A DNA stretch of 64,000 nt from Candidatus Amulumruptor caecigallinarius (GTDB taxonomy: Bacteria; Bacteroidota; Bacteroidia; Bacteroidales; Muribaculaceae): assembly GCA_023665605.1 (NCBI GenBank), contig JAMPDP010000003.1:1-64000 (forward strand), read 5' to 3'. The translations under genes were made by a program, and so were the position numbers. This document shows, piece after piece, positions 56,977 to 62,648 of the stretch (within the stretch, counting starts at the first letter, position 1; each line of letters opens with the position of its first letter). The notes under the pieces were generated by a model, which did not search any database, was not told the origin of the DNA, and saw nothing but the letters and a program-made list of their open reading frames with translations.

Positions 56977-58509
56977 ATGGACCGCAAAGTCAGAGTGCGC
57001 TTCGCACCTTCGCCCACCGGACCGCTGCACATTGGCGGAGTCAGGACTGCCTTGTTTAACTATCTGTTTGCACGCCGTCACGGCGGCGACATGGTACTTC
57101 GCATCGAGGATACTGACAGCCAGCGTTTTGTGCCGGGTGCCGAGGATTATATCAACGAGGCCTTGGCCTGGCTCGGCATAGGCATTGACGAAGGTGTGCG
57201 TGAGGGCGGCCCCCACGGGCCGTACCGACAGAGCGAGCGCCGTGACATATATCGCCGGTACGTCAAGCAGCTGCTTGATGATGGAAAGGCGTACATAGCC
57301 TTTGACACTCCCGCCGAGCTGGAGGCTGCGCGTGCCGCCACTCCCAACTTCCAGTACGATGCCACAACCCGCATGAAGATGCGCAACTCGCTCACCCTTG
57401 GTGCTGAGGAAACGCAACGACTCATTGATGCCGGCGAGAAATATGTGGTACGCTTCCTTATAGAGCCTGACCGCGATGTGGAAGTCAACGACCTACTCCG
57501 CGGTAAAGTGGTGATAAGCAGCAACGTACTTGATGACAAGGTGCTCTACAAGAGTGCCGACGACCTGCCCACCTATCATCTGGCCAACATCGTCGATGAT
57601 CATCTGATGGAAATCAGCCACGTGATACGCGGCGAGGAGTGGCTGCCTTCGGCACCGCTGCACGTACTTCTTTATGAGGCTCTCGGTTGGGCTGACACGC
57701 GTCCCGACTTCGTGCACCTGCCGCTCCTGCTCAAGCCTGACGGCAAAGGCAAGCTCTCAAAGCGCGACGGCGACCGGCTGGGCTTCCCTGTATTTCCACT
57801 TGACTGGCGCGACCCCAAGACCGGCGACCTTTCGTCAGGCTACCGCGAGGCCGGCTACCTCCCGGAGACGGTGGTCAACTTCCTGGCCCTCCTGGGATGG
57901 AACCCCGGCGACGACACCGAAATCATGTCTATGGATGAGCTGGTGAGTCGCTTCGGCTTCGACCGCTGCTCCAAGGCTGGTGCAAAGTTTGACTTCGAGA
58001 AGGGCAAGTGGTTCAACCACAAGTATATCCAAGCTATGGATGATGCCTCACTCGCTGCCATGCTCAAACCCGAGATGACAAAAGAGGGCATTGACCCCGA
58101 GGCTTTTGGCGACGATTACATAACTCGCGTTGTTGGCCTGGTCAAGGATCGCGCCAACTTCGTGAAGGATATACTCGCGCAGGGGGGCTTCTTCTTCAAA
58201 GCTCCCGAAGAGTATGCTCCCAAAGATGTGAAGAAGCGCTGGAGCGAGGAGATGCCCCGCATACTCGGCGAGCTGCGCGACTTTCTGGCTACTCTGCCGG
58301 CTTGGGACTCGGCGAGTGCCGAACAGCCGGTGCTCGACTGGATTGCTGAGAAAGGCTACCATCGCGGCAACGTCATGAACGCATTGCGCCTGGCAGTGGT
58401 GGGCGAGTGCCGCGGGCCACAGATGTTTGACATCATCGACCTGCTTGGCCGCGACGAGACCTTCGCCCGCATTGACCGCGCGATAGCCAACATCACCCCC
58501 ACCCTCTGA
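56977..58509 (+). CDS. gltX: Glutamyl-tRNA synthetase
   Basis: A class I synthetase that charges tRNA-Glu. The HIGH signature is [20 protein letters not shown] (residues 7-26) and the KMSKS counterpart is [13 protein letters not shown] (about 263). The catalytic domain with [15 protein letters not shown] is followed by an all-helical anticodon-binding domain ending in [13 protein letters not shown]. The 510-aa length is typical of Bacteroidetes. The discriminating type (Glu-only versus Glu/Gln) cannot be read from this. It heads a run of same-strand genes: waaA follows after 10 nt. Confidence 0.95.
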
Positions 58510-58519
58510 CTCATCCGCA

Positions 58520-59785
58520 TTGAACCCGCTCTATAACTTAGGCATCAGGGCCTATGCAGCAGCAGTGAGGCTCGCTGCCATCTCCAACTCTAAAGCCGCC
58601 AAGCTCACTGCCGGCCAGCGCAACACCTTGGCGCGACTCCGCGATGGGCTTGCTGCCGGCAACGGCCCTGTGGTGTGGGTGCACGCCGCATCGCTTGGCG
58701 AGTTTGAGCAGGGGCGTCCGCTTATTGAGCGTTTGCGGCGCGAACAACCCGGAGTGCGCATTGTGCTCTCATTCTTCTCACCTTCGGGTTACGAAGTGCG
58801 CAAGGATTATCCGCTGGCTGATGCGGTGGTCTACCTGCCGTTTGACACCCCACGGCGTGTACGTAAGTTTATAGACGCGGTAAATCCTCGCGAGGTCTAC
58901 TTCATAAAATATGAGTTCTGGGGCAACTACCTGCAGGAACTGTCACGCAGGAAGATACCGGTATATCTTGTGTCGGCAATCTTCCGCCCCACACAGAGCT
59001 TCTTCAAGCCCTGGGGTGGCACGTTCCGCGATATGCTGCGGAGTTTACGTCACATCTTCGTGCAGGACGAAGAGTCCCGCCGACTGCTTGCCGGCATTGG
59101 TGTGACTGCGGTCACTGTGGCCGGTGACACACGCTTTGACCGCGTGGCAGCCGTCCGCTCCACTCCTTGCAAAGTGGAAGGCATAGAGCGCGTGATGACT
59201 CCGGATTGTTTTCGCTTCGTGGCCGGCAGCTCCTGGCCGGAGGATGAACGGATTTACTTGCCCTGGCTCGACTCGCAACCCGGTATGAAGTTCATCATTG
59301 CCCCACATGAGTTTGACGCTGTACGTCTTGACCGTCTCGTCGCTGCTCTGCCTCATCGCCGAGTCATGCTTATGAGCAGGTGGATAGACGCCGGAAAACC
59401 CGCTGACATTGACGGGCTTGTGGTTGACTCTTTCGGCTTGCTGTCATCACTCTATCGCTACGGTGACGTGGCCTACATAGGTGGTGGCTTTGGCGCCGGC
59501 ATCCACAACATCAACGAGGCCGCTGTCTACGGTATGCCCGTAATATTCGGCCCTGAACATCACAAATTCCGCGAGGCCCGCGGACTCATGGAGTGCGGAG
59601 GCGGCTACGAAGTGGCCGGCCCCGAAAGTTTCACCGGTGTCGTCACCCGTCTTCAGTCAAATCCGCAGGCACTCGCTGCCGCCGGCCAAGCCGCCGGAGA
59701 TTATATCCGCGACAACCTCGGAGCCACCGACCGAGTATATGAGAGTGTCTACGGCACACCCGATACCGTGCACACATCCCGCTGA
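58520..59785 (+). CDS. waaA: 3-deoxy-D-manno-octulosonic acid (Kdo) transferase
   Basis: WaaA adds Kdo from CMP-Kdo to lipid A precursors at the inner face of the cytoplasmic membrane. It is a GT-B enzyme (GT30). The N-terminal helix (YNLGIRAYAAAVRLAAI) anchors it. The catalytic base lies in VHAASLGEFEQGRPLIE (about residue 60), and the CMP-Kdo pocket contains AYIGGGFGAGIHNINEAAVYG and PVIFGPEHHKF at the C-terminal half. The start is a TTG at 58520; no ATG is available before the conserved helix. 421 aa, normal. The gap to argC-like is 49 nt. Confidence 0.92.
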   Translation: MNPLYNLGIRAYAAAVRLAAISNSKAAKLTAGQRNTLARLRDGLAAGNGPVVWVHAASLGEFEQGRPLIERLRREQPGVRIVLSFFSPSGYEVRKDYPLADAVVYLPFDTPRRVRKFIDAVNPREVYFIKYEFWGNYLQELSRRKIPVYLVSAIFRPTQSFFKPWGGTFRDMLRSLRHIFVQDEESRRLLAGIGVTAVTVAGDTRFDRVAAVRSTPCKVEGIERVMTPDCFRFVAGSSWPEDERIYLPWLDSQPGMKFIIAPHEFDAVRLDRLVAALPHRRVMLMSRWIDAGKPADIDGLVVDSFGLLSSLYRYGDVAYIGGGFGAGIHNINEAAVYGMPVIFGPEHHKFREARGLMECGGGYEVAGPESFTGVVTRLQSNPQALAAAGQAAGDYIRDNLGATDRVYESVYGTPDTVHTSR

Positions 59786-59834: not shown

Positions 59835-60803
59835 ATGATTAAAGCAGGCATCATCGAGGGAACCGGCTACAAGGCCGGTGAGCTCATCCGCCTTTTGCTG
59901 AACCATCCCGACGTAGAGATAACATGGGTCACCTCTCGTGACCACGCAGGCATGCCGCTGTCAAGTTGCCATCGCGGCCTCACCGGCGAGACAGACATTT
60001 GCTTCACCGACACCGCAGACACCGGGGCGATTAATGCTCTGTTCGTATGCGGCGATGCCGGCTCGGCACTGGCTGACCTGCCTGCTGATGTAAAGGTGAT
60101 AGACCTCCGATGCGAGGCTCGTACCACAGCGTCGATTGACTCGGAAGCTACCGAAGGTACCGTCTACGGTCTCCCTGAGCACGCCCGCAAAGCACTTGTT
60201 CGCGGGGCAACCCGCGCGGTGGTGCCGGGAGAACTTGCCACAGCCCTGGAACTGTCGCTGCTTCCGTTGGCACGACACCTGCTGCTCAACAGCGACATCC
60301 ACGCCACTGCCGTGATTGGCTCCAGCGAAGCTGACGGCTCGCTCAACGAGGCCATCCACACCCGCCGCGCCGAAAACGTCACTCCCTCCGCTCTGCTTGC
60401 TCACGCCGATGTGGCCGAGGTGACACGCCTCCTCTCGGGCGTGCAGTCAAGTTGTCGATCCAAGGTGAATGTAGTCGGGCTGGACGGCCCATTTGCCCGA
60501 GGACTTATCACCGTCACTTATCTCGACTGTCCCGTAGCCACGGATGAGCTGGTGAAGCTCTACACAGATTTCTACGACGACCATAATTTCACTTTCGTCA
60601 GCCCCGACGTTCCTGATCTGAAAGAGGTAGTTAACACCAACAAGTGCCTGCTCCACCTGCGCAAGAGTGACGGGATGCTTGTGATAGTGGCCGTGATTGA
60701 TAACCTCCTCAAAGGCTCGGCCGGCACCGCTGTCCATGACATGAACCTGCTCTTCGGGCTGCACGAGCGCACGGGGCTCAACCTCAAGGCCTCGGCATTC
60801 TGA
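59835..60803 (+). CDS. ArgC-like protein lacking the catalytic cysteine
   Basis: It is homologous over its full 322 aa to N-acetyl-gamma-glutamyl-phosphate reductase (arginine pathway), with GYKAGELIRLLLNHPDVEITW at the start and a family C-terminus (VNTNKCLLHL, then NLLKGSAGTAVHDMNLLFGL). But the active-site motif NPGCxAT is VPGELAT: Glu133 (GAA, 60231-60233) replaces the essential Cys. The Rossmann GxxGxxG is GIIEGTG (the middle Gly is Glu8), the DLSxDFR motif is DLRCEAR, and the HRHTPEI-type motif is AHADVAEV, losing one His. Several independent catalytic and cofactor positions are therefore changed while the ORF stays intact. It is likely a pseudoenzyme with another role, or a decaying copy. 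It sits between waaA and an M16 peptidase, not in an arginine cluster. Confidence 0.85.
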   Translation: MIKAGIIEGTGYKAGELIRLLLNHPDVEITWVTSRDHAGMPLSSCHRGLTGETDICFTDTADTGAINALFVCGDAGSALADLPADVKVIDLRCEARTTASIDSEATEGTVYGLPEHARKALVRGATRAVVPGELATALELSLLPLARHLLLNSDIHATAVIGSSEADGSLNEAIHTRRAENVTPSALLAHADVAEVTRLLSGVQSSCRSKVNVVGLDGPFARGLITVTYLDCPVATDELVKLYTDFYDDHNFTFVSPDVPDLKEVVNTNKCLLHLRKSDGMLVIVAVIDNLLKGSAGTAVHDMNLLFGLHERTGLNLKASAF

Positions 60804-60832: not shown

Positions 60833-62074
60833 ATGAAAAGCTCGGATCCTGCTCAAAAAGACCCACCGGTGACCCTCGTCACGCTCGCCAACGGCCTTCG
60901 AGTGGCTGCCATGCAGCTCCCCCGAAGCCGCGTGGACTACTTCGGCGTGAACGTCAACGCCGGTTCCCGCGACGATCCGGAAGATGCTTTCGGCATGGCT
61001 CACATGGTGGAACACACCATATTCAAGGGCACTGACAGACACCGTTCGTCATATATCATCAACCGCATGGAGGCTGTGGGCGGCGAGCTCAACGCATACA
61101 CCACCAAGGAGGAGACCGTGGTATACACCATAGCTCCCGCCGGCAACCTGCGACGGTCAGCCGGACTTATCGCGGAGCTGATAGCCTGCTCGGTATTCCC
61201 CCCCGACGAAGTGGAACGCGAGCGAGAGGTGGTGGTTGACGAAATCAGCTCATATCTTGACACCCCCGCCGATGCCGTGATTGATGACTTCGAGGAACTC
61301 TCCTTCCGCCATCCAGCACTGGCTCACAACATTCTTGGTAGTGCGGAGAGCGTCAGAGACATCACTTCCAATCGGCTGCGGGAGTTTTTGAAGACGCACT
61401 ATGTGCCGGAACGGATGGTGGTGTTCTATTGCGGTCCGCAAGCACCCGAATATGTGGTGCGCGAAGTTGACCGCCATTTCGGCTCTCTGAGACACCACTC
61501 TCCTGCCGTCACCCGACAAGTAGCAGAGTTCAACCCGCAGTTTGACACTGTGCATAACCTTGACCTTCACCAGACTCACACCATCATCGGTTCTCCAACG
61601 TGCAATGCCCTGTCCCCTGACCGACATGCACTGCTCTTGATGACCAATATATTGGGCGGTCCGGGCATGAACTCGATGCTCAACGTGGAGCTGCGCGAGA
61701 AGCGGGGACTTGTGTATTCCGTCGACGCGTCTGCCACACTGCTGAGTGACTGCGGAATGCTCCAGATTTATTTTGGGTGTGACAAGAGCGACCTCGGCAA
61801 GTGCATCCACCATGTGCATGGTGCCATCCGCCGGCTTGCTGACGGCTATATCTCCCCCACGCGCCTTGAACGCGCCAAGTGCCAGTACCTCGGCCAGCTC
61901 ACCGTTGCTGCCGAAAATGCCGAAGGCCGCGCACTCGGCCTTGGCCGCAGCGTACAGCTATATGGCACCCCGCCATCTCCCGACGCTGTGACCAAAGCTA
62001 TCCACGCCGTCACCGCCGCCGACATAGAACGTGCCGCAGCAACCCTCACCCTCTCGCGTCTCACCCTGGCCTGA
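60833..62074 (+). CDS. M16-family zinc metallopeptidase
   Basis: A 413-aa processing-peptidase-like protein. The inverted zinc motif HMVEH (His57, Glu60, His61, in FGMAHMVEHTIFKGT) is intact, and the third ligand is a Glu in EREREVVVDEISSY (about residue 131-140). A two-lobe fold is expected: the second half contains HTIIGSPTCNAL and the conserved LREKRGLVYSV. No signal peptide, so a cytoplasmic location is likely. Substrate unknown. Its closest relatives are PqqL/YmxG-type peptidases. It follows the ArgC-like gene by 29 nt and is probably co-transcribed with it. Confidence 0.88.
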   Translation: MKSSDPAQKDPPVTLVTLANGLRVAAMQLPRSRVDYFGVNVNAGSRDDPEDAFGMAHMVEHTIFKGTDRHRSSYIINRMEAVGGELNAYTTKEETVVYTIAPAGNLRRSAGLIAELIACSVFPPDEVEREREVVVDEISSYLDTPADAVIDDFEELSFRHPALAHNILGSAESVRDITSNRLREFLKTHYVPERMVVFYCGPQAPEYVVREVDRHFGSLRHHSPAVTRQVAEFNPQFDTVHNLDLHQTHTIIGSPTCNALSPDRHALLLMTNILGGPGMNSMLNVELREKRGLVYSVDASATLLSDCGMLQIYFGCDKSDLGKCIHHVHGAIRRLADGYISPTRLERAKCQYLGQLTVAAENAEGRALGLGRSVQLYGTPPSPDAVTKAIHAVTAADIERAAATLTLSRLTLA

Positions 62075-62156: not shown

Positions 62157-62648
62157 GTGAAACAGAAGTCAACCACCATCACCCCGAAACGTCAGTTGCT
62201 GTCACACCTCTACCGTAACAACATGAGGTGCACTGACGAGCGTATGCACATCCTTGATGCTGCTCTGGAGCTCGGCAGCGGCTTCGTGCCCGCCGACGTA
62301 GTTAACCAACTCGAAGAGAACGGCTTCCATGTGTGCCTCCCCACCGTGTACAACAATCTTGCCCTCCTCTGTGACGCCGGCATCCTCACCAAGAGCGTCA
62401 ACATCGACGGCAAAGCCTGCTACGTGGTAGTGGGGGCCTCGGGCCCGCGAGTGAAGCTCGTATGCACATCCTGCGGCAAAGTAAAAGCCGTGGAAGTGCC
62501 CGAGATAGCCTCCACCGTGCTCAAGCGCCGCTACCGAGGGTTCACCGCCAACGGTTTCCAGCTCCGCGTGGAAGGCATATGCACCAAGTGCCGCAACCGC
62601 ATTGCCTCCGAGGAGGCCGGTGAGGCTGTTATTCCGGGGCTTGACTGA
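62157..62648 (+). CDS. Fur-family transcriptional regulator
   Basis: A metal- or peroxide-responsive DNA-binding repressor. The winged helix covers about 14-90 (MRCTDERMHILDAAL, then HVCLPTVYNNLALLCDAGIL, the DNA-recognition region). The dimerisation part has the structural zinc pairs CTSCGK and CTKCRNR, two CxxC motifs about 40 residues apart, as in PerR/Fur proteins. Whether it is Fur-, Zur- or PerR-like cannot be settled. The start used is GTG 62157 (163 aa). ATG at 62223 would still preserve the winged helix (141 aa). Confidence 0.87.
   Translation: MKQKSTTITPKRQLLSHLYRNNMRCTDERMHILDAALELGSGFVPADVVNQLEENGFHVCLPTVYNNLALLCDAGILTKSVNIDGKACYVVVGASGPRVKLVCTSCGKVKAVEVPEIASTVLKRRYRGFTANGFQLRVEGICTKCRNRIASEEAGEAVIPGLD

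Follow-up and report, generated by a model that had tools for sequence, protein, structure and literature searches.

The window, i.e., the whole stretch of 64,000 nucleotides that was analysed, contains at positions 59835..60803 of the forward strand an intact open reading frame of 322 amino acids, coding for an ArgC homologue that lacks the catalytic cysteine and is termed here pArgC; the assignment comes from the profile match, an ArgC-like structural model and the best PDB match, ArgC 1vkn. All the genes described around it lie on the same strand. Two conserved neighbours are located upstream, gltX for glutamyl-tRNA synthetase (56977..58509; TIGR00464, 450 bits) and a homologue of the Kdo transferase gene waaA/kdtA (58520..59785), the latter 49 bp from pArgC. 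After a gap of about 30 bases pArgC is followed by a gene for an M16 peptidase with the motif HMVEH (HxxEH; 60833..62074) and then by a gene for a Fur-family regulator (62157..62648). Judging by the spacing, gltX-waaA-pArgC-M16 looks like a single transcription unit, and the M16 peptidase directly adjoining pArgC is common only to the window species and its sister species. The initial annotation had named the waaA, M16 peptidase and Fur-like neighbours correctly, and the locus indeed lies outside any arginine cluster.

The TIGR01850 (argC) profile matches the window protein with 181.6 bits over profile positions 1-341 of 345, which is below the equivalog cut-off of 233.6 bits, and both Pfam semialdehyde-dehydrogenase domains pass their threshold. 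Residues 130-133 read VPGE instead of NPGC, so that the codon GAA for Glu133 (60231..60233) occupies the place of the catalytic Cys codon; the sequence and the TIGR01850 match bear out what had been proposed at the outset, an intact, full-length ArgC homologue with this substitution. The Rossmann glycine motif is GIIEGTG (59847..59867) where the canonical form is GIIGGAG, and thus departs from the GxxGxxG of the NADP loop; the HQH (HxH) motif is changed to HAD at residues 190-192, with the first His retained, and residues 161-180 are altered. The early claim that several motifs had changed holds for all of these in the window protein, but the replacement of the second Rossmann glycine (G8) by Glu was seen in the window genus, whereas most other Cys-less copies retain G8, present in 86% of the set, and lose G11 more commonly. 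Since many genomes of the family are metagenome assemblies, one may ask if the missing cysteine results from sequencing or assembly error or from contamination. The probability of this is practically nil, because the same locus and the loss of Cys recur in the sister species, which has CPGE at the site of VPGE, and in many independent assemblies, and the window genome is 99.99% complete and 0.03% contaminated.

Origin of the two ArgC copies

The initial annotation suggested looking for a second, canonical ArgC, and such a copy was found inside an arginine cluster of the window genome (C11:1531936): it carries NPGC, scores 275.6 bits and is flanked by argG and argD, after which argB and argH come next. 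The key genes of arginine synthesis are therefore present without counting the window gene. In the tree the window pArgC nests within the ArgC clade of the family, while the canonical ArgC of the same genome is placed outside this clade (99/98 support), and a constraint grouping the two copies of the window genus was rejected (p-AU 0.0023). Recent duplication within the genome as the origin of pArgC is ruled out by the trees and the AU test; pArgC descends from the family's own ArgC, and it is the canonical copy that has a foreign origin. The foreign ArgC copies, which come from eight genera, group together close to those of other families, which suggests that the arginine cluster spread horizontally. 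Such a foreign-type argG-argC-argD cluster is present in 21 of 74 family genomes, again from eight genera (L001, L171, L176 and second copies among L124-L146), and from its sequences it looks to have been spread horizontally, restoring arginine prototrophy. By parsimony the Cys state changed three times, a minimum only, as the tree is poorly resolved, and the deep order of the Cys-less lineages is unsure in it because of long branches.

Native ArgC in Muribaculaceae and in other families

The survey covered 74 near-complete Muribaculaceae genomes from 19 genera, which were searched with profiles, after which the loci were fetched and their motifs and neighbours read. The family assignment rests on named relatives that were recovered by sequence (Muribaculaceae, Muribaculum sp.). 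A descendant of native ArgC was found by the profile search in every one of them (74/74), and the catalytic Cys is replaced in 43 of the 73 native copies that were read at the site. The genomes fall into three classes. In 23 of them a single canonical ArgC stands behind argG, mostly with argR upstream. Another 21 possess the foreign-type argG-argC-argD cluster in addition to the native copy, which has no Cys in 15 cases and has it in six (genus g7). The remaining 30 have neither argG nor argH and keep the native copy alone, with 28 copies being Cys-less, one having Cys (G072) and one unread at the site (G080). Thus, 44 of the 74 genomes possess argG and argH together with a strong argB, while argR occurs in 46 and is absent from 28, including the window genome. 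From 23 of the 30 genomes devoid of argG and argH also argB is absent, so that the substrate of ArgC could not be made there by the known route; the other seven, which all belong to genus g17, possess an ArgB homologue with a low score. In the g17 auxotrophs G059, G094, G121, G039 and G145 (L177, L178, L179, L180 and L183) this ArgB (NAGK) homologue falls under the TIGR00761 cut-off and its glycine motifs are altered, the canonical VKVGGK/HGGGRSAT being replaced by VNVEGI/HGEGTMVS, VKVSGK/HSGANLAG and others, so it is likely a second pseudoenzyme of the arginine pathway. As for the copy that was expected to be conserved in relatives, related species do retain Cys-less copies at this locus, but the exact VPGE is variable and what is conserved is the absence of Cys.

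For comparison, 118 near-complete genomes from other families of the same order were taken, 60 of which are without argG (an argG truncated at a contig end and another that is split were scored as present). ArgC above 100 bits was found in only three of these 60, although with this threshold highly eroded copies could be missed and the outside group thus undercounted. When argG-less genomes possessing ArgC are compared, 30/30 in the family against 3/60 outside it, Fisher's test gives p = 8e-21, a value that ignores relatedness and treats non-independent species as independent. Two of the three outside keepers have intact NPGC. The third, G417, encodes a Cys-less ArgC (L172:2337-3272) with IPDV, in the order argR-pArgC-proC and with no argG elsewhere in the genome; as G417 belongs to another family, the pattern extends beyond Muribaculaceae.

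Around the Cys-less copies the old neighbourhood, gltX-waaA and/or argR, is often still present. The order gltX-waaA-argR-argG-argC found in G033 is taken as ancestral; gltX and waaA at the pArgC locus would be a legacy of it and need not imply any functional link. Clustering of neighbourhoods revealed no downstream partner gene common to several genera, and the downstream neighbours vary. In genus g30 the order argR-pArgC-(ssb-like)-speA recurs (L155, L156, L157, L159 and L161), where speA is presumably the arginine decarboxylase gene, named by recognition of its sequence. Could pArgC then be a regulatory subunit of the arginine pathway, e.g., in a heteromer with canonical ArgC or as a co-regulator with ArgR? 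The position of argR directly upstream at 19 loci and the g30 order would fit such a role, and 15 of the genomes with a Cys-less copy have a canonical ArgC as a possible partner. However, a canonical ArgC is lacking in the auxotrophs, which rules out this partner for them, and ArgR as an obligatory partner is ruled out by the 28 of 74 genomes, the window's included, which have pArgC and no ArgR. We regard a regulatory subunit as quite improbable.

Erosion and selection in the Cys-less copies

Residue 133 is occupied by nine different amino acids in the 43 Cys-less copies (Ala in 15, Pro in 14, Ser in six, Glu and Thr in two each, and Gly, Asp, Met and Gln in one each). The most eroded part across the set is the substrate-side region, residues 157-200 (60303..60434 in the window), which retains 0.24 of native conservation; many copies have lost the substrate loop altogether, and in others it is eroded. 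The best-kept segments retain 0.71-0.81 and comprise the N-terminal strand-helix, residues 108-127 and the C-terminal core, which in the window protein corresponds to residues 285-322 (60687..60800; VIDNLLKGSAGTAVHDMNLLFGLHERTGL). These data bear on the possibility that the ArgC fold now runs another NAD(P)-linked reaction without Cys. The cofactor side partly survives, namely G5, G8 in the same 86% of copies, D289, K293-G294 and N304, and there is an ArgC reductase engineered for another phosphate (8afv). On the other hand, such a reaction is difficult to reconcile with the variety at residue 133 and the frequent deletion of the substrate loop; moreover, His190 is kept in only 17 of 43 copies, G11 and N290 are mostly lost, and G8 is missing in the window genus itself. 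No new conserved residue in place of the lost ones was found among the 43 Cys-less copies, which argues against a new active site. A changed enzyme is thus considered unlikely, and pArgC would have no catalytic activity.

One of the elements that Cys-less copies retain is a helix motif of the family's native ArgC, which reads RKALVRG in the window protein (residues 118-124; 60186..60206). The form RKxxV[RH] is present in 40 of 43 Cys-less copies and in 24 of 30 native copies with Cys (7/7 in genus g7 and 17/23 in the others), and it was found in none of 21 foreign ArgC proteins and none of 25 ArgC proteins of other families. Genus g25 is without it, with IIRG in both its Cys and Cys-less forms, and in g23 the motif is altered. 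In the model RKxxV[RH] lies in and just past the helix 114-122, ahead of the strand that leads toward the old catalytic residue.

The AlphaFold model of the window protein has a pLDDT of 90.2 and a pTM of 0.90 and is weak only near residues 161-180; a very eroded copy about 30% identical to it is predicted with a pLDDT of 92.2 and a shortened 161-180 loop. The best PDB matches of both models are ArgC and LysY enzymes, i.e., the predicted fold is that of ArgC. Selection was estimated as pairwise Nei-Gojobori dN/dS, with dS of about 1.2-1.5, near saturation, so that the values are approximate: 0.219 for the window gene against that of the sister species, 0.140 for the canonical ArgC of the same two species, and 0.037, 0.081 and 0.102 for other congeneric Cys-less pairs. 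The dN/dS calculation proposed for the VPGE clade, carried out here on Cys-less pairs, thus gave ratios well below 1 (0.04-0.22), dS being high. A decaying remnant, in which the gene is inactive and its deletion merely pending, would account for the fast and variable sequence with its eroded active site, and for the window pair having a higher dN/dS than the canonical pair (0.22 against 0.14). Decay is nevertheless very unlikely: the open reading frames are full-length in 43 of 43 Cys-less copies (289-364 aa), the dN/dS values stay well below 1, the fold is predicted confidently even at about 30% identity, and the native copy persists in all 74 genomes though argG, argH, argB and argR were lost from many of them.

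A putative ArgC pseudoenzyme with a second function

Catalytic residues are lost from an intact homologue with a predicted ArgC fold, and this homologue is retained and appears to be under purifying selection, as far as dS near saturation allows. The pseudoenzyme with a retained use that the initial annotation had in mind is supported by the canonical second copy, by the conserved Cys-less relatives and by dN/dS below 1, and since pArgC is present also in genomes without the arginine genes, the evidence reaches past that idea. The protein was kept through loss of the pathway and its re-gain, whether or not ArgR is present and with varying genes downstream, which implies that it is wanted for itself. 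The window open reading frame is therefore probably a copy of a family-wide, maintained ArgC pseudoenzyme. Its role would not depend on arginine synthesis; most likely it consists in binding and continues a second function of native ArgC. That function is probably older than the loss of catalysis, because Cys-bearing native copies of genus g7 persist beside the foreign ArgC; the g7 native copies, including that of the auxotroph G072, may have residual ArgC activity, as they keep the Cys.

The following course of events may be proposed. Muribaculaceae would have started with a single arginine locus, gltX-waaA-argR-x-argG-argC, from which several lineages lost the arginine genes and retained the argC gene. 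Freed from catalytic duty, argC could then lose the substrate loop along with the Cys, whereas purifying selection would hold the scaffold and the basic helix RKxxVRG that precedes the former active site. Some lineages, including that of the window, would later have gained the foreign argG-argC-argD-argB-argH and become prototrophic again, still keeping the old protein. As our best guess, pArgC would be an ArgC-fold binding protein, probably an oligomer like ArgC, which contacts a protein or nucleic-acid partner via the conserved helix and the scaffold. A stronger version, put forward only tentatively, would have the second function indispensable already in native ArgC before catalysis was lost, carried by the RKxxVRG helix and the scaffold, and obligatory through the loss of arginine synthesis and its horizontal re-gain throughout a family that is dominant in the gut. 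If true, this would be the first essential non-enzyme derived from ArgC.

Pseudoenzymes as a class are known, and they are often discussed alongside an active twin. We found no publication that describes an ArgC pseudoenzyme or this pattern across Muribaculaceae, in a search that covered mostly open-access papers and no preprints. The loss of the chemistry in many lineages, with the protein persisting after the pathway is gone, argues strongly, though indirectly, for a second, hidden function. It also concerns annotation, since single Cys-less copies from genomes G016, G020, G025, G060, G079, G094 and G095 exceed the TIGR01850 cut-off, and Cys-less copies of this kind would be named ArgC, suggesting that arginine is made in genomes that have neither argG nor argH. 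The arginine-pathway variants tabulated for gut genomes comprise the full pathway, ArgG and ArgH only, ArgA-F without G/H, and none, with no ArgC-only class among these listed variants (PMC9026213). According to PMC6381624, Muribaculaceae are a dominant family of the mouse gut.

Among known systems the closest is ArgC itself (TIGR01850; 1vkn, 1xyg, 2i3a), which pArgC resembles in full-length homology, in the C-terminal core and in the predicted fold (TM 0.85-0.90 to 1vkn). Unlike ArgC, pArgC has no catalytic Cys, its HQH and Rossmann motifs are altered, it stays under the curated cut-off, it is encoded outside the arginine cluster, and relatives keep it even without the pathway. Homologues of aspartate-semialdehyde dehydrogenase of the USG-1 type also belong to the semialdehyde-dehydrogenase family, have lost catalysis and are kept in a conserved operon, but they derive from Asd of Proteobacteria and represent a separate lineage. 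Yeast Arg5,6, a fusion of NAGK and ArgC with a reported gene-regulatory, non-metabolic role, differs from pArgC in being catalytically active, fused to NAGK and eukaryotic.
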